Positions 4,454-12,924 of a stretch of DNA of 64,000 nucleotides are shown here, in pieces. The stretch is taken from contig NZ_CP031320.1 in the NCBI RefSeq assembly GCF_003355155.1, positions 7,593,383-7,657,382 on the forward strand, in the 5' to 3' direction. Both the position numbers and the translations under genes were made by a program. The notes under the pieces are model-generated. The model was given only the letters and a program-made list of their open reading frames with translations. It did not search any database and was not told the origin of the DNA. Source of the DNA: Streptomyces armeniacus. Lineage in GTDB: Bacteria; Actinomycetota; Actinomycetes; Streptomycetales; Streptomycetaceae. Numbering within the stretch: the stretch's first letter is position 1; the number at the start of each line of letters is the position of its first letter.

Positions 4454-5833
4454 TCAGTCCGGCCGGGGCGAGTCCGTGCCGGGGCGCGGGGTGCGCCAGT
4501 GGCCGCGGGTGAAGTCGGGGAAGTCCTGCGGGGCACCGTGGGCCCGGATCGACGCGTGGCTCAGCGGGACCGGCGCGGTCCACGTGGCGGCGTCGTACAC
4601 GTCGAAGTCGGGGGTGAGACCGAGACGCATGCACTGCACGAGCCGGTAGAGCATGAGGTAGTCCATGCCGTCGTGGCCGCCCGGCGGGTCGGGGTGCTCC
4701 TTCCACAGCCAGTGGTCCCAGGACGCGTAGTCCTCGAAGTCGCCCCACTCGTGGTCGTCCCGGTCCGGCTCGAGGTAGATGCGCGGGGGATAGTCCTCGA
4801 ACACCCCGCGCGTGCCGCCCAGCGTGTTGATCCGGCTGTACGGGCGCGGGTTGGACACGTCGTGTTCCAGGCGTATGACGCGGCCCTTCGCGGTCTGGAC
4901 GAGACTGACGGACAGGTCCGCCGAGACGTAGCTCTCCTTCCAGCTCTCGTCTCCCGGCGGCATGTGCTCCTTCCGGTACGCCGCCAGCCCGAGCGCGGGT
5001 GAACCGACGCTGCTGATGCGTACGGCACGGTCGCCCCGGTTGAGGTCCATGTAGTTCGCCACCGGTCCGAAACCGTGGTTCGGGTACAGGTCCCCCTTCA
5101 GCCGGGTGTGCCACTTCCGCCGCCAGGGGCCCTCGTAGTACTCGGGGTCGAACATCAGCTCCCGGAGATCGTGCAGATACGCCCCGGCGCCATGCAGGAG
5201 ATCACCGAACAGGCCCGCGTGGGCCATGCGCAGGACGCGCATCTCGTTCCGCCCGTAGGCGCAGTTCTCCAGCTGCATGCAGTGCCGCCGGCTGCGCTCG
5301 CTCAGATCGACCAGCTCCCACAGCTGCTCCAGCGTCATCGCCAGAGGGCACTCCACCCCCGTGTGCTTGCCGTTGGAGAGCGCGGACTTGGCCATGGGAT
5401 GGTGCCACTCCCAGGGGGTGGCGATGTAGACGAGGTCGATGTCGCCGCGGCGGCAGAGGTTCTCGTAATCGCGTTCGCCCTTGGTGTACAGGGCGGGAGC
5501 GGGCTGCCCCGCCTTCGTGACCTTCTCCGCCGCGGCGGCGGCCTTGTCCCGTACGGAATCGCACAGGGCGACCACCCGTACGCCCTTCAGCGTGAGGAAC
5601 AGCTCCAGCATGCCGGCGCCGCGGTTGCCCAGCCCGACCAGTGCGACGCGTACGGCCGAGCGCGGCTCGAAGGGCACGCCGACCATGGTGGGCGCGCTGC
5701 GCGGGGGCGCGTCCGTGCCGGTCGCGGCGGCGGCCTCGGCGGACGTGGTGCCCAGTGCGCCGATGCCGAGCGCGGCGCCTGCGGCGCCGGTGGTGTGCAG
5801 GACGGAACGGCGGCTGATTCCCTGATCGTTCAT
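4454..5833 (-). CDS. Tat-exported Gfo/Idh/MocA oxidoreductase, GH109-like
   Basis: This encodes 459 residues. A twin-arginine signal ([18 protein letters not shown]) occupies residues 1-35, so a pre-folded, cofactor-loaded enzyme is exported. The Rossmann motif [13 protein letters not shown] follows near residue 65, then [15 protein letters not shown] and GVECP, typical of the NAD-dependent family that includes GH109 alpha-N-acetylgalactosaminidases. In that family tightly bound NAD supports redox-assisted glycoside cleavage. ATG 5833 follows GGGAG; an upstream TTG is less likely. It lies downstream of the M24 gene on the same strand, 136 bases away. Substrate is not predictable. Confidence 0.82.
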
Positions 5834-5969
5834 CAACTCTCCCGGTGTCGCGGGGTGGTGCCGGGTGCGCCGGTACGATCAGGACCCTTCCGCCGCGGCG
5901 GCCGCGGCGCAAGAAGGCGGGCATGGACTCTCGGCGCGGGCCTCTTGGACTTTTCCGCCCGCCGCGGAC

Positions 5970-7241
5970 TCACGGCCGGGGCGTTCCGGCCGCCTGCAGG
6001 ATCCGTGCCGTGTACGGGTTGAGCTCGACGGGTTCGTCCTCGCCGACGATGACCGTGCCGCCGAGGTAGGCGAGGTGGCGCCCGCAGACGAAGTTGGGTT
6101 CGAGGGCGAAGGTCATCCCGGGCGCGAGTTCCATGTCGCCGCAGAGGGTGGGGTGGCGGGCCTCGGGCGGATAGGCCCCGGCACCGGGCAGATGCTCGGC
6201 GGCGTACGAGGGGAAGCCGCTCAGCGCGATCATCGGGTTGAGGGCGTGTATCGCCGGGCCGAACTCCCAGCCGTCGGCGGCCTCCAGGGGCTCGCGCATG
6301 GCGTCGACGGCCTCGCCGAACGTACGGCCGGGACGCAGCGCCCGCAGGCACGCGTCGTAGACCGCGCGGGCGACGCCGGCGGCGCGCCGCAGGTCCGGGT
6401 GCGGCTCGCCGATGCTGATGGTGACCTGGTGCTGGGTGTGGCGTCCGGCGACGTTGCTGAAGACCTCGGCGGAGATGACATCGCCGTCCCGCAGGGTACG
6501 AGGGGCCTGCGGGCGGTAGGACCACGGCGGCAGACCGCTGGCGAGCGGATCGGGCCCCGACCAGAAGTGCATGGCCGCGGGGGTCGTCCCGCGCGCGTAT
6601 CCGGCGGCCATCCCCGCCGCGTACACCTCGCTCTCCGGCACCCCGGCAGCGGCGGCGCCCACCATGGCCCGCGCCATGGCGTCGCCGATGCGCGCCGAGC
6701 GGCGTACGACGGCGGTCTCCTCGTCGCTGAGCGGCATCATGAGCCGGGCCAGCGCCATGCCGACAGGCCTGAACTCCGTACCGGGGAACCTCTCCAGAAC
6801 GCTGCTCCACAGGCCGTACGGAACGATCCCCTCGGGGTGCCACGGGGGAGCGGGCTCCAGCCCGACGACGCCGACGGTCCCGCCGGCCAGGCCGAGTTCG
6901 CCCAGCGTGGCGGCGATCGCGCGGGAGTCGCGGGAGGCCCGTACGTGCCGGGGCGGAAACCACACGGCGTCGCCCCTGCGGGCCGTTTCGAGATGATCCT
7001 TCGCGAACATCTCCATGGGGAACAGCGAGACCGGGTGCCCGTCACGGGGGAAGACGACCGTCGTGCCGGCCCTGCCGTTGGTGAACCAGGTGTCGTAGGC
7101 GAACGGAGCGGGGCCGGCGTCTTCGTGCTCGCCGAAGACGAGGAGCGCGTCGAGGCCTTCGCGAGCCATGAAGGTGCGCGCGAGGTTCCAGCGGCGGTCG
7201 CGTTCGGCGGTGGAGTATGCGGGTACTTCCGGGTCGGTCAT
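5970..7241 (-). CDS. M24 (pita-bread fold) protein, creatinase/Xaa-Pro aminopeptidase-like
   Basis: This 423-residue protein has an N-terminal creatinase domain (about 1-165) and a C-terminal pita-bread catalytic domain. The five metal ligands of M24 aminopeptidases are not all present. The first Asp position is E259 (VISAEVFS) and the second falls in HTQHQ around 269-272. H332, E381 and acidic residues near E401 remain. It may therefore act metal-independently, like creatinase, or be a divergent enzyme. A GGAGG eight bases before ATG 7241 supports the start. It is divergent from the Tap-like gene and precedes the GH109-like gene. Confidence 0.8.
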   Translation of the reverse strand: MTDPEVPAYSTAERDRRWNLARTFMAREGLDALLVFGEHEDAGPAPFAYDTWFTNGRAGTTVVFPRDGHPVSLFPMEMFAKDHLETARRGDAVWFPPRHVRASRDSRAIAATLGELGLAGGTVGVVGLEPAPPWHPEGIVPYGLWSSVLERFPGTEFRPVGMALARLMMPLSDEETAVVRRSARIGDAMARAMVGAAAAGVPESEVYAAGMAAGYARGTTPAAMHFWSGPDPLASGLPPWSYRPQAPRTLRDGDVISAEVFSNVAGRHTQHQVTISIGEPHPDLRRAAGVARAVYDACLRALRPGRTFGEAVDAMREPLEAADGWEFGPAIHALNPMIALSGFPSYAAEHLPGAGAYPPEARHPTLCGDMELAPGMTFALEPNFVCGRHLAYLGGTVIVGEDEPVELNPYTARILQAAGTPRP

Positions 7242-7439
7242 GGCGTTGTCCTCCGGGTCCTTCGGAATGCGTTACCTGCCTCGACTGTGGTCGGTGCCGG
7301 GGGAGCTATCCAGGCAGGCCCCAGGCTGGGAGCGCCCGTCCCAGGCTGTCCGGCGGCGTGCTCGGGGCGGGTGCCCCGACTGCCAACGCACCGCTGCTTT
7401 CCGTCAGTTTTCCGTCCAGAGCCCGTGTAGTTTGGTGCC

Positions 7440-8858
7440 ATGCACGGTGAACGCGGTGAGGACGGGGTCGCTGCTCTGCTGGCGGAGGCAAGGCTGGCGG
7501 CGGCCTTCAGCGATCCGGGGGAGCGTGCCCGGCTGCGGAAGGCCGCGGGGTTCTCGCTGGAGCAGTTCGCCAGGGCTGTCGCCGAGCCCGACGGCAGCAA
7601 GGGCGTCGGCCGGCAGACGATCGCGAACTGGGAGAGCGGCGGCACGTCGTCGTCCCCGGCGTTCGGCAGGTATCTGCGGCTGCTGGAGGGCCTCGCGCAG
7701 ATCCACCCCGCCCCACGGGCCGAAGCCGAAGGCGAAGCCGCGCCCGCACCGGCCCAAGCAGCCGCGCCCGCACCGGCCCAAGCCGGGCGCGGCGAAAGCG
7801 AGTCCGCGGAGAGCCCGGCCGCGCGGGAGGCCCGCGCGGGGCACGCCCGGCACCGGGCACAGCGCCGTACGGGCTCCGCGGACGACGTCCGCGCACAGCT
7901 GCGGGAGACGATCGCCGCCGCCGTGGACCAGGAGCTGGAGAAGGCCGGCGGGGACGCGGACGCGGCATCCGCTGCGTTGACCAAGCGGGCGATCCCGGAC
8001 GTGATGGCGCTGTTCACCCGTACCAGGGCCGGTGCCCGGTACGAATACACCGCCTACCCCGCCCTCCCCGACATCCTGCGCAAGCCCAGCAAGACCGACC
8101 CTGACCTGATCTGGGAGGGCCGCCCCTCCTGGCGCCACCCCGGCTACCGCCGCCACCCCGACGGCGGCCTCGGGGTGACCGCGCTGGACGTGAACGCGGC
8201 CTACCTCTCCGCGCTCAAGACGTGGTTGCCGATCGGGAAGCTGGAGCACTCCCGTGGCGGCGAGCACGACCGGAAACGCGCCGGAGTACACCTGATCACC
8301 CCCACGCCCTGGGAACACCCGCACCTGCCCAGCCCGTTGGGAGACCGCGAAGAGGAGGGGCCGCTGTGGATCACCGAGCCCACCCTGCGCCTCCTGCTGC
8401 GGCTGTCGGGGCCGAAGCACAGCCTCCTCGCGCCGCCCGTCATCCACGAGTCCTGGACCAGTTCGGCGACGGAGACGTTCCTCGACAGCCTCCGCCAACT
8501 GCTCGCCTCCGCCCGCGCCGACGCCCTCGCCGCCGGCGACGATGTCACCGCGGGCTACGTGAAGGCCATGTACTCCAAGTTCGTCTCGACGATGGGGGAG
8601 TCGTCCCACAACCGGGAGATGGTCCGCCCGGACTGGATGCACCTGATCCGCTCCCAGGCATTCGGCAACCTGTGGAACCGCGCCTTCAAGGCGTATCAGG
8701 CGGGTCTCACCGTCATCTCCGCACTCGGCACCGACGAACTCCACGTCGCGGGCGAGTGGCGGCAGGTGTGGGACGAAGGCCGCGGCCTGGCCGAGATGAA
8801 GATCAAGACCGACCGTAACGGGGCGCCGGTCCGCTACACCGTCACCGAGGCCGGCTGA
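7440..8858 (+). CDS. Tap-like protein: XRE HTH plus B-family polymerase-palm-like domain
   Basis: This encodes 472 residues. Residues about 28-80 form an XRE-type helix-turn-helix (RLRKAAGFSLEQFARAV, then TIANWESG and YLRLLEGLA), which resembles the N-terminus of the telomere-associated protein Tap. An Ala/Pro linker follows. The C-terminal half has LDVNAAYLSA with D250, YVKAMYSKFVSTMGE with K375, and GTDELHVAG with D432. By eye these match motif A (DxNSLYPA), motif B (KLMLNSLYGKF) and motif C (DTDSIHLTG) of protein-primed B-family polymerases, with similar spacing. The two metal-binding aspartates are kept; the first motif-C Asp is Gly. ATG 7440 has no clear ribosome site, so leaderless expression is possible. 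It overlaps the next gene by one base. Confidence 0.65.
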   Translation: MHGERGEDGVAALLAEARLAAAFSDPGERARLRKAAGFSLEQFARAVAEPDGSKGVGRQTIANWESGGTSSSPAFGRYLRLLEGLAQIHPAPRAEAEGEAAPAPAQAAAPAPAQAGRGESESAESPAAREARAGHARHRAQRRTGSADDVRAQLRETIAAAVDQELEKAGGDADAASAALTKRAIPDVMALFTRTRAGARYEYTAYPALPDILRKPSKTDPDLIWEGRPSWRHPGYRRHPDGGLGVTALDVNAAYLSALKTWLPIGKLEHSRGGEHDRKRAGVHLITPTPWEHPHLPSPLGDREEEGPLWITEPTLRLLLRLSGPKHSLLAPPVIHESWTSSATETFLDSLRQLLASARADALAAGDDVTAGYVKAMYSKFVSTMGESSHNREMVRPDWMHLIRSQAFGNLWNRAFKAYQAGLTVISALGTDELHVAGEWRQVWDEGRGLAEMKIKTDRNGAPVRYTVTEAG

Positions 8859-9433
8859 TGGCCGGCCGCTGGGCCGACTTCGGCCAGTACAACGCCCGCG
8901 GCGTCCCGGGCGCCCAGGCCCTCGGCAACGGCATCGAGCGCATGGTCACCGGGCTCGCCTCCTCACCGGACTCCGGCCGGGGCATCGCCGCCCGCCTGCG
9001 CTACGTGACCGCCTCCGACGCCGGGTACGCGGCGATGGACCGCGCCGGGATCAGCGTGACCCCCCGCACCCTGTACGCGTGGCTGGCCGAGGAACGCCGG
9101 CCCAGCGCCGTGAACCGGGCCCGGCTGGACGACGCTTACTGGGACCTGCGCCGCCACAACGTCGCCGCCGACCTCAAACGCCGCCTGACCGCCCGGGGCG
9201 GCACCCGTATCGAGATCGACCCGGTGGACCAGACCGCGGTCGCCCCGGCCCACCGCCGGACCCTGCCCGTACGCCGCATGACCGTACGCCCCCGCCACTG
9301 GTCGGCGGCCGTCGACGCGTGGCTGGCGGACGACGAGACGGCGATGGACGGGATCTGGGACGACCTCATCGTCGAACTGGGCAGCGAGTACGACTCCTAC
9401 GCCTACGTCTCCTCCATCGGCTGGGCCGCCTGA
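8858..9433 (+). CDS. Tpg-like small DNA-binding protein (putative terminal-protein relative)
   Basis: This encodes 191 residues and its start overlaps the upstream stop (TGATG), so the two are translationally coupled. The middle region has a helix-turn-helix-like stretch (ISVTPRTLYAWLAEERRPS) followed by a basic helix. The C-terminus is acidic and Tyr-rich (ELGSEYDSYAYVSS). This order and the tap-then-tpg gene order resemble terminal protein Tpg, which caps linear Streptomyces telomeres and primes end patching through a hydroxyl residue. Similarity is at the architecture level only; an HTH regulator is the alternative. A 12-base-pair hairpin follows. Confidence 0.5.
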   Translation: MAGRWADFGQYNARGVPGAQALGNGIERMVTGLASSPDSGRGIAARLRYVTASDAGYAAMDRAGISVTPRTLYAWLAEERRPSAVNRARLDDAYWDLRRHNVAADLKRRLTARGGTRIEIDPVDQTAVAPAHRRTLPVRRMTVRPRHWSAAVDAWLADDETAMDGIWDDLIVELGSEYDSYAYVSSIGWAA

Positions 9434-10366: not shown

Positions 10367-10788
10367 CGTCCCGGGCGAGCCAAACCGGCTCGAACTGTGC
10401 TCGTCTTCAGCGAATCGCCAAGCGGGCAGCCGGACGAACGGCCCGACGATTCCGCGGGCGTGGGCGTCGATCAGGTCGTCTCCCTCCGGCGGCCGCTAGG
10501 TGTATTGATCATGAGCGTTGTTGACACTGGTCGGTCTTGATCACGGCGAAGACCTCCGGTGTGGTGGAGGTGTCTAGGCTTCACCGCACACGGAGGTCTT
10601 CGTGTCCCACCGTAATGCCCGGCTGACCGTTCACGGCAGGAGGATCCTGGTCGAACGCCCCCCCGCCCCCCCCCCCACCCCTGCTCGCCCCCACGCCGCC
10701 CCGACGCCCCGCCCCACGACCTCCGGCCCCAAGACCACCCCGCCGCCGCCCCCCAGGGCCCCCGGCACGGAAACCCCAGGGAGTGAAG
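10367..10788. other. gene-poor region holding the IS481 remnant
   Basis: Apart from the IS481 remnant at 10516-10658, this region has a C-run-rich stretch at 10660-10760 just before the Hsp70 operon and no credible gene. Frames that run through it into 12863 are shadows of the Hsp70 gene. Confidence 0.5.
10516..10658 (+). mobile_element. truncated IS481-family insertion sequence (left end and start of transposase)
   Basis: The stretch from TGTTGACACTGGTCGGTC resembles an IS481-family terminal end. At 10602 a GTG behind GGAGG opens a frame beginning [18 protein letters not shown], which matches the N-terminus of IS481-type transposases. After about 19 codons it gives way to C-rich low-complexity DNA with no catalytic DDE region. 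The rest of the element is gone, so this is a dead remnant. The right-hand limit is approximate. Confidence 0.7.
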
Positions 10789-12924
10789 ATGAAGGCAATC
10801 GGGATCGACCTCGGCACCACCAACTGCGCCGTCACCCGCTACGACGAGGCCCGTGCCACCGCCGCCGTGCTGGCCAACGGCGAGGGCGAGACGCTCACCC
10901 CCTCCGTGGTGGCACTCCGCCGGCGCGACGGCGACGAGTCGCTGCTCGTCGGCCGTACGGCGGTGAACTTCGCGCCCCGCCAGCCGCAGGACACCATCCT
11001 GTCCGTGAAGCGCCTGATGGGCCGGGACTTCGCCGACCAGGTCGTCGCGCAGGCACGAAGCAGGCTCAACTACGAGATCGTGGCGGGCTCCGACGACGAC
11101 CCGCGCGCGCACGTGGTGATGGGCGGCCGTACGCACTCGCCCGCCGAGATCTCCAGCATGATCCTGAAGAAGCTGAAGAAGGACGCGTCCCGTTCGCTCA
11201 GCGAGGAGGTCACGCACGCGGTGATCACCGTGCCCGCGTACTTCCACGACTCGCAGCGCGCGGCCACCCGGGACGCGGGCACGCAGGCCAACCTCGTCGT
11301 GAAGAAGATCATCGACGAACCGACCGCCGCCGCCGTCGCGTTCGGCCTGGAGCTGGACCAGCAGGACCGCCGCCGCGTCCTCGTCTACGACCTCGGCGGC
11401 GGCACGTTCGACATCTCCATCCTGCACACGGCGAAGGACAAGGAGGGGAACGCCCACTTCCAGGTCCTCGACTACACGGGCGACAGCTGGCTCGGCGGCG
11501 ACGACTTCGACAACACCATCGTCGGCCGCGTCATCGAGGACATCAAGGAGAAGTGCGGCGTGGATCCGGCCGCCGACAAGAAGTTCCTCTTCCTCGCCAA
11601 GAACCACGCCGAAGCGGCCAAGCGCCAGCTCAGCCAGCTGCCGGAGGCGGACATCCTGATCCCCGCGGCGTTCCGCCCGGACACCGGCGGGCCGCTGGTC
11701 GACGTGGAGATGACGGTCACGCGGGAGGAGTACGACGCGATGATCGAGCCGTACGTCGACCGCACCATGGCCCTCGTACAGGAGGCGCTGAGCCGCCAGA
11801 ACCTGTCCGCCGAGGACATCTCCGACGTCCTCCTCGTCGGCGGCTCCACCCTCACCCCCAAGGTCTACGAGACCGTCGAGCGGTTCTTCGGCAAGGCCAA
11901 GGTCCGCCGCAACATCAACCCCATGGAGTGCGTCGCGCTCGGCGCCGGCATCCTCGCCGGGACCATGCAGGGCGTCGAGTGCCCGAGCCCCAAGTGCCGC
12001 AAGTCCAACGAGGAGGACGCCACCGCCTGCGCCGCCTGCGGCGAGGGCCTGGCCTCGGCCCGCCCGCTGGACGCGCCCGTGATCTACGAGGTGACGGGCA
12101 TGGCGCTGGGCATCGCGGCGGTGAAGGGCACGCAGCAGGACACGTTCGTGCCGATCATCCCGCGCGGCACCCCGTACCCGCTGCCGGAGCCGATGCGCCG
12201 GTCCTTCCACACGACGGACGGGCGGTTCATCCGCGTCCCCGTGTACGAGGGGGACAGCGCGGTGGCCAGCCAGAACAACGAACAGGGCGTCGTCGAGTAC
12301 GAGTTGCCCAAGCAGGTCGACGTGAACAGCCGCGTCGACGTCACGTTCAACTACGACGCCGACCGGATCGTCATGGTCCGCATCAGCGTGCCGGGCACCG
12401 ACATGGTGAAGGAGTCGACGCTGCGCACCGACACCCACCGCACGCCGCCGCCCGAGCCGGAGACCACCGCGGACGACGAGGCGGGCTGGCGCGAGGAGCT
12501 CGTGCGGACGGAGGCCGAGACGCGGCGCTTCCTGCAGACGCACGAGCAGTTCATCGAGCCCGCGCAGGCCATGAAGATCCGCCGGGACCTGGATCAGGCG
12601 CAGCAGGCGCTGAACTTCTCCGACAACGCCGAGTGCCGCCGTATGACCAACGTGCTCAGCTCGGACCTCTTCGGCTCCGGCATCGCCTCGCAGTTCCTGC
12701 TGGCCGAACGGGCCGCCGACGGCGCGCCGCCCGAGGAGGCCCGGAAGATCAACGAGGCGGTCGGCAACGTACGCCGCTCCTACCTCAGCGGTCAGCGCGA
12801 GGCCGCCAGCGAGCAGGCCCGCATCCTGAAGATGCTGATCGCCCGCGCGTTCCAGGCGCGTGACGTGGCGGAGGTGCCGGACGAAGAGGCACACGGCGGT
12901 CTGCTCCGGCTGCTCGACGAATGA
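10789..12924 (+). CDS. Hsp70-family chaperone with inserted zinc ribbon
   Basis: This 711-residue protein has a complete Hsp70 ATPase: phosphate-1 [11 protein letters not shown], phosphate-2 [10 protein letters not shown] near residue 200, and adenosine motif [10 protein letters not shown] near 350. Just after it, where DnaK enters the linker, C398, C403, C414 and C417 form a CX4CX10CX2C zinc ribbon. A beta-rich substrate-binding-like region and a helical tail follow. Housekeeping DnaK has no such insert and is about 100 residues shorter. ATG 10789 follows GGGAG; GTG 10783 is an alternative. It overlaps the next gene by four bases. Clients are unknown. Confidence 0.9.

Follow-up and report, generated by a model that had tools for sequence, protein, structure and literature searches.

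The closest described counterparts of the gene pair analysed here are the telomere proteins Tap and Tpg of Streptomyces and the DNA polymerase and terminal protein of phage phi29. As far as the accessible portions of the sources go, canonical tap and tpg (NCBIfam NF047542; PMC4513846, PMC3572947) likewise form a two-gene operon, which encodes a protein with an N-terminal helix-turn-helix (HTH) domain and a homologous C-terminal domain with both of the Asp residues discussed below, together with a partner of ~190 aa. Canonical Tap and Tpg make 13 nt of protein-primed DNA with no other polymerase added (PMC4513846, 2015); the available part of that paper also relates that Tap was initially regarded as a tether, that DinB1 or DinB2 had earlier been proposed as the polymerase, and that its authors see no DNA polymerase motif in Tap. 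In the literature accessible to us, in part as excerpts, we found no report of a polymerase fold in Tap; it is possible that a 2017 Tap paper has described catalytic residues before. Two other atypical Streptomyces telomere-protein pairs are GtpB/GtpA of S. griseus and Tac/Tpc of SCP1, which we liken to the present one by their descriptions in the available parts of PMC7205883 and PMC4513846.

A two-gene cassette with a Tap-like first protein

The window is the whole 64,000-nucleotide stretch of Streptomyces armeniacus DNA that was analysed. It contains two open reading frames on the forward strand, 7440-8858 (+) of 472 aa and 8858-9433 (+) of 191 aa, with the following features, of which the domain folds are those of a predicted model:

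7440..8858, + strand: tap-like gene, 472 aa; N-terminal HTH, then a C-terminal family-B polymerase core
7452..7703, + strand: N-terminal helical HTH domain, the Tap-like DNA-binding part, residues 5-88
7983..8852, + strand: polymerase core with phi29-like palm and fingers, residues 182-471
8187..8204, + strand: motif A, D250-V-N-A-A-Y; D250 is the proposed metal ligand and counterpart of phi29 Asp249
8556..8582, + strand: motif B region, Y373-V-K375-A-M-Y-S-K380-F, second fingers helix
8730..8744, + strand: motif C, T431-D432-E-L-H; D432 is the proposed metal ligand and counterpart of phi29 Asp458
8856..8860, + strand: TGATG stop/start overlap that couples both genes (TGA 8856-8858, ATG 8858-8860; one base common)
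8858..9433, + strand: tpg-like gene for a 191-aa candidate terminal protein, with size and position as in Tpg
8921..9142, + strand: residues 22-95 of the candidate terminal protein, HTH-like and weakly collinear with Tpg 5-77

An earlier note on this DNA had described the start of the second gene as fused to the stop of the first, and the one-base TGATG overlap bears this out. Downstream of the pair lies the gene of an HSP70-type protein of 713 aa (window 10783-12924, +; Pfam HSP70 E 2e-117), and upstream are those of a GH109/GFO_IDH-type protein and an M24 metallopeptidase (4454-5836 and 5970-7241, both -), for which a telomere link is not evident.

The same note had called the N-terminus of the 472-aa protein Tap-like, and NCBIfam telomere_Tap (NF047542) agrees, matching residues 9-163 with model positions 5-147 (E 2.9e-16). 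At 59.3 bits, this match is far below the cut-off of 600 bits for a model of 695 positions, which places the protein outside the canonical-Tap equivalog. The Pfam HTH_31 match (E 2e-4) also falls under its family cut-off, and the predicted model has helices within residues 5-88. A scan of genome contigs for the family gave at least 78 loci, 76 of these titled Streptomyces; our alignment (A1) holds the window and 74 of the 78 loci, 75 rows in all, with the fragments at L054, L074, L076 and L080 omitted. NF047542 matches 36 of these 75 rows (best E 2e-30), many rows being trimmed to the C-terminal half. When A1 is compared by hhalign with an alignment of 30 canonical Tap proteins (A3), residues 229-434 fall on Tap 406-644 with 99.6% probability (E 1.9e-23), and D250 is paired with D426 and D432 with D642 (numbering of the L083 Tap). 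The family differs from canonical Tap in length, 472 aa against 706-755 aa in ten Taps, and is without the central Tap region.

For the 191-aa protein, the description as Tpg-like stands for size and position, as the Tpg type is ~185 aa and encoded downstream of tap in one operon; the homology is weaker than had been claimed. Searches of Pfam, NCBIfam and PHROGs gave no match up to E 1. We compared 44 rows of the 191-aa family (the window and 43 selected loci) with 27 canonical Tpg sequences drawn from the 30 Tap loci, L088, L128 and L137 having no usable ORF, and hhalign returned a weak collinear match of residues 22-95 to Tpg 5-77 (16% probability, E 0.0016). The priming residue of Tpg, given as Thr114 in the available part of PMC3572947, lies outside the aligned stretch. 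Candidate hydroxyl residues are present in the family, with Ser or Thr at position 116 in 42/44 rows, at 126 in 37/44 and at 176 in 44/44.

Predicted polymerase fold and comparison with phi29

The earlier note had expected the C-terminal half of the first protein to resemble a polymerase palm. Structure prediction and Foldseek gave a family-B polymerase core, with phi29 DNA polymerase as the best solved match. The TM-scores are modest (at most 0.40 for the whole model), and the fold families named here are those among the Foldseek matches, so that likeness to folds outside that listing is also conceivable. In the predicted model, palm strand 244-251 has D250 at its end, and the hairpin 424-429/433-437 has D432 in its turn. 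These are the sites, a strand and a hairpin turn, where phi29 carries Asp249 and Asp458, its catalytic residues according to the available part of PMC4974454. The motif B region is on helix 368-383. By eye, phi29 D-V-N-S-L-Y...L-L-P-Y-G can be set beside D-V-N-A-A-Y...W-L-P-I-G, N-S-L-Y-G-K-F beside K-A-M-Y-S-K-F, and D-T-D-S-I-H beside G-T-D-E-L-H.

The three motifs that the earlier note had likened to motifs A, B and C are found at D250, K375 and D432, with spacings of 125 and 57 residues. The likeness holds for the Asp positions of A and C in palm strand and hairpin, and is incomplete elsewhere. Motif C keeps the second Asp and is without the first, reading GTDE vs DTDS in phi29, with G430 in 74/75 rows. 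When Y378-S-K380-F is aligned by eye with phi29 Y-G-K-F, K375 falls on the phi29 Asn, and on this register we dropped K375 as the exact motif-B lysine, which it probably is not; at position 371, likewise placed by eye against phi29, Leu occupies 60/75 rows and Lys is absent from the five commonest residues.

Profile comparison of the family with seven phi29-type polymerases was not significant (hhalign, 0.66% probability, E 0.087); the register it gave is nonetheless that of the structural match. The comparison of canonical Tap with phi29-type polymerases was not significant either. Sequence and profile searches of PDB sequences found neither a polymerase nor a terminal protein. For the 472-aa family, the best 25 of 51 Pfam families contain no polymerase, only HTH domains, and Pfam, NCBIfam and PHROGs detect only the HTH and the Tap N-terminus in the 472-aa protein itself.

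With the phi29 polymerase and terminal protein, the pair shares the palm/fingers fold, the Asp positions, the pattern DVNxxY...LPxG (by eye) and the adjoining genes for polymerase and protein primer. It differs in that the exonuclease domain (phi29 1-189) is absent, with no strand before residue 230 and an added HTH domain instead, and in that the motif-B helix (368-383) is followed by another helix (397) after only ~13-15 residues, which leaves little room for TPR2. The match to phi29 starts at phi29 176-189 and ends at 495-496 in the five phi29 Foldseek rows, before thumb residues 557 and 575. The family would, moreover, serve replicon ends and not whole-genome replication. Because the C-terminal domain is homologous and the Asp residues align, the fold found here is a candidate explanation for the published activity of Tap.

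Conservation and apparent mobility of the family

D250, N252, A254, Y255, the run Y373-V-K-A-M-Y-S-K380 and T431-D432-E-L-H are identical in 75/75 A1 rows. The two aspartates proposed as metal ligands are thus kept throughout, and the search for homologues without them, which the earlier note would have taken as counter-evidence, found none in these rows. The composite pattern D[VIM]N..[YF], followed after 5-9 residues by LPxG, occurs in 74/79 family ORFs vs 0/2049 other ORFs (at least 150 aa, same loci). A terminal-protein homologue follows close behind the polymerase gene, the junction measuring -7 to +21 nt in 50 of the 63 loci that have both ORFs.

The two genes apparently travel together as a cassette, since the nearest relative is homologous at the DNA level over the pair alone (7433-9433) and none of six loci compared (L004-L008, L011) has flanks in common with the window. 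No family match was found by tblastn in phages. Public plasmid records call many family members acyltransferase, (HTH/transcriptional) regulator or hypothetical protein (e.g., L098 719-2742 and L102 1431-3661). Four linear plasmids carry, next to the pair or not far from it, a gene annotated as "Helicase associated domain protein" (L092 6958-9639, L096 4934-7447, L097 453-3035 and L093 25846-28530).

Association with replicon ends and one telomere class

Matches to the family were found by tblastn in 186 plasmid records, some of the weakest covering the HTH part only. Among the best 60 of the 186, the gene lies within 20 kb of an end in 27 records, where 12.7 would be expected at random placement, and within 10 kb in 17, where 6.5 would be expected. 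The terminal 140 bp of NZ_CP108608.1, which is among the best records, match 33 records, in each of which the best place is at most 26 nt from the record end. This telomere (L092-type) is present in 22/27 of the best family plasmid records vs 0/33 of the next listed (Fisher p 5.7e-12, the records not being independent) and in none of the best 60 of 342 canonical-Tap records; the other 5/27 were without it in the terminal-sequence search. Eleven of the 33 telomere-bearing records are outside the best 60 of the 186 family records. Six of these were searched with A1: one holds a copy in pieces, two give no match, and in three the match is confined to the N-terminus (in one of them within an open frame of 859 aa), so that a full-length copy is present in 0/6. 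Telomere-bearing records of this kind may be served in trans, as the available text of PMC8743542 suggests for Tap/Tpg.

The 33 telomere-bearing records include pSGZL (NZ_CP003988.1). The same text (PMC8743542) lists pSGZL and pSCAT as Sg2247-type and says that no telomere proteins had been identified for Sg2247-type ends, nor did we find them reported in the other literature available in part. Both plasmids have the family, pSCAT with a full-length member. For S. albus J1074, the available portion of PMC3937824 assumes a yet-unidentified telomere-protein pair and deems non-functional XNR_5804, a Tap-domain gene near the right end and beside a pseudogene; XNR_5804 may belong to the family.

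Hairpins with GTA, GGA or GAA loops were seen at the end taken in 8/12 plasmid records inspected, and no telomere was seen at the end taken in L099, L100, L102 and L103. In L101, GTA sits in a 6-nt loop. Of the canonical-Tap replicon ends, 4/8 had a telomeric appearance; their loops were GCA or CTTG, and GTA was absent. Since both classes have GGA and GAA loops, it is the GTA loop together with the sequence, and not loops generally, that separates them. Folding energy alone is no telomere marker, as the non-telomeric right contig end has a lower energy than its shuffled versions (z -3.4) and the L096 end folds no better than shuffles (z -0.6).

In a comparison of eight selected genomes of the genus, the family is present in 4/4 without a Tap over the cut-off (as partial matches in G080 and G110) and in 0/4 with one. 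Genome G065 has an intact copy ~1.2 kb from both contig ends; its left copy runs through GTDELH to a normal stop and is followed by a terminal-protein homologue, and the telomere there has GTA, GGA and GAA loops. The left end of G015, where the family is also present, shows GGA loops and no GTA, and no telomere was seen at the left ends of G080 and G110.

Because the family lies near the ends of linear replicons above chance and is tied to one telomere class, we read the 472-aa protein as the polymerase of a telomere-maintenance pair. Of the earlier proposal of a polymerase-plus-terminal-protein module that is more than such a pair, the predicted polymerase fold is retained; the use of polymerase motifs as an argument against a telomere role was dropped on the end proximity and the telomere-class link.

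Telomere-like arrays in the S. armeniacus genome

The S. armeniacus genome is one 8.08-Mb contig, in which the pair lies ~480 kb from the right end. It has no canonical Tap over the cut-off, and the pair is the only Tap-like or family match. Inside the contig are three telomere-like palindrome arrays that are 95-100% identical, all face right and fold with GTA, GAA and GGA loops:

8009524-8009690, 8007238-8007393 and 6691690-6691829 of the contig, - strand: telomere-like arrays (loci L112-L114, L124-L126)

The earlier note had seen no telomere near the pair, and this agrees with a whole-genome search in which the arrays are all elsewhere, the nearest ~404 kb to the right. Against the pSGZL end, the arrays show 84-85% identity over ~40 nt (best 85% over 41 nt; E 3.3e-6 at best), and the genome's own array gave no match to plasmids at E 1e-4. 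Between the two right-hand arrays is a helicase-like ORF (L112 1-1152, -), which may be TtrA-like.

A search for a terminal inverted repeat (TIR) between the two outermost 20-kb stretches of the contig (1-20000 and 8063250-8083249; L002 and L003) gave none, and a telomere is not evident there. By eye, the left end seems to begin within a gene, so the contig may lack its true ends. The position of the internal arrays suggests pseudo-telomeres or an assembly join. The genome thus appears to have a telomere of similar type; a pair ~480 kb inside, no TIR, internal arrays and no plasmid-end match at E 1e-4 count against a firm assignment of linearity and of the exact telomere class from this assembly.

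Alternative readings and proposed mechanism

These features of the contig bear on the possibility that the pair is left over from the integration of a linear plasmid or comparable element and is unused by the chromosome of the window. Homology that stops at the pair (7433-9433), the lack of flanks common to the six loci, the distance to the contig end and the missing TIR between the outer 20 kb would all fit a relic, but both genes have uninterrupted reading frames and retain the conserved residues, and the pair is the sole Tap-like or family match in a genome that carries similar telomere arrays; we consider this reading doubtful. It is still less probable, to our judgement, that the polymerase fold was kept while catalysis was lost, such that the protein would only bind telomere DNA and recruit the terminal protein for synthesis by a host polymerase. 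The motif departures leave room for such an inactive form, with the first motif C Asp lost (G430 in 74/75) and the motif-B Lys displaced (by eye), and Tap itself was first seen as a tether, with DinB1/DinB2 proposed as polymerase (available part of PMC4513846). Against this speaks the invariance, over 75 rows, of both carboxylates at the catalytic positions and of the residues around them; canonical Tap, which has the same domain, also polymerises without an added polymerase, according to the same text.

That the genes encode ordinary transcriptional regulators, an Xre-type HTH protein with a small DNA-binding partner, is highly improbable. Plasmid records do annotate homologues as helix-turn-helix or transcriptional regulators, and Pfam detects nothing but HTH domains in the first protein, yet it is the 300-residue C-terminal portion, with the phi29-polymerase fold, that is conserved, and there is an excess near replicon ends with a telomere association. 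We ruled this reading out on the fold and the telomere link.

The explanation we favour, at a probability of about 0.77, is that the two genes form a divergent end-patching system of the Tap/Tpg type, in which a shortened phi29-like polymerase and a protein primer serve Sg2247-type telomeres. Our confidence is slightly lowered by the link of the S. armeniacus arrays to the Sg2247 type, which depends on the short pSGZL match and the loop pattern. We infer polymerase activity of the 472-aa protein from the predicted fold, the conservation and the homology to Tap. In this end-patching system, the 472-aa protein would use its N-terminal HTH to bind a linear replicon's folded 3' overhang. The C-terminal polymerase core, with no proofreading domain and apparently without the full TPR2 and thumb, would attach the first nucleotide to a hydroxyl group on the 191-aa protein and then extend the primed nucleotide for a short stretch, as the fold and the published Tap activity suggest. 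By analogy with the Tap/Tpg literature, the terminal protein would stay on the 5' end while another polymerase fills the remaining gap. The telomeres on which the family acts would be those of the Sg2247 type.

Implications for telomere replication in Streptomyces

A broader reading, for which we see about even chances, is that all Tap proteins form a cellular lineage of protein-primed family-B polymerases without the exonuclease and most of TPR2 and the thumb. Each would be a split polymerase that needs its terminal protein to be complete, with sublineages co-evolved with telomere classes and the present family as the missing Sg2247-type machinery. If true, the split polymerase would explain why synthesis stops after ~13 nt. 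For the activity of Tap, the fold offers a candidate active site in which two aspartates can be named, and it links bacterial chromosome-end repair to phage protein-primed replication. The family is also a concrete candidate for the telomere proteins missing in S. albus J1074 and at Sg2247-type ends, as these are described in the available parts of PMC3937824 and PMC8743542.
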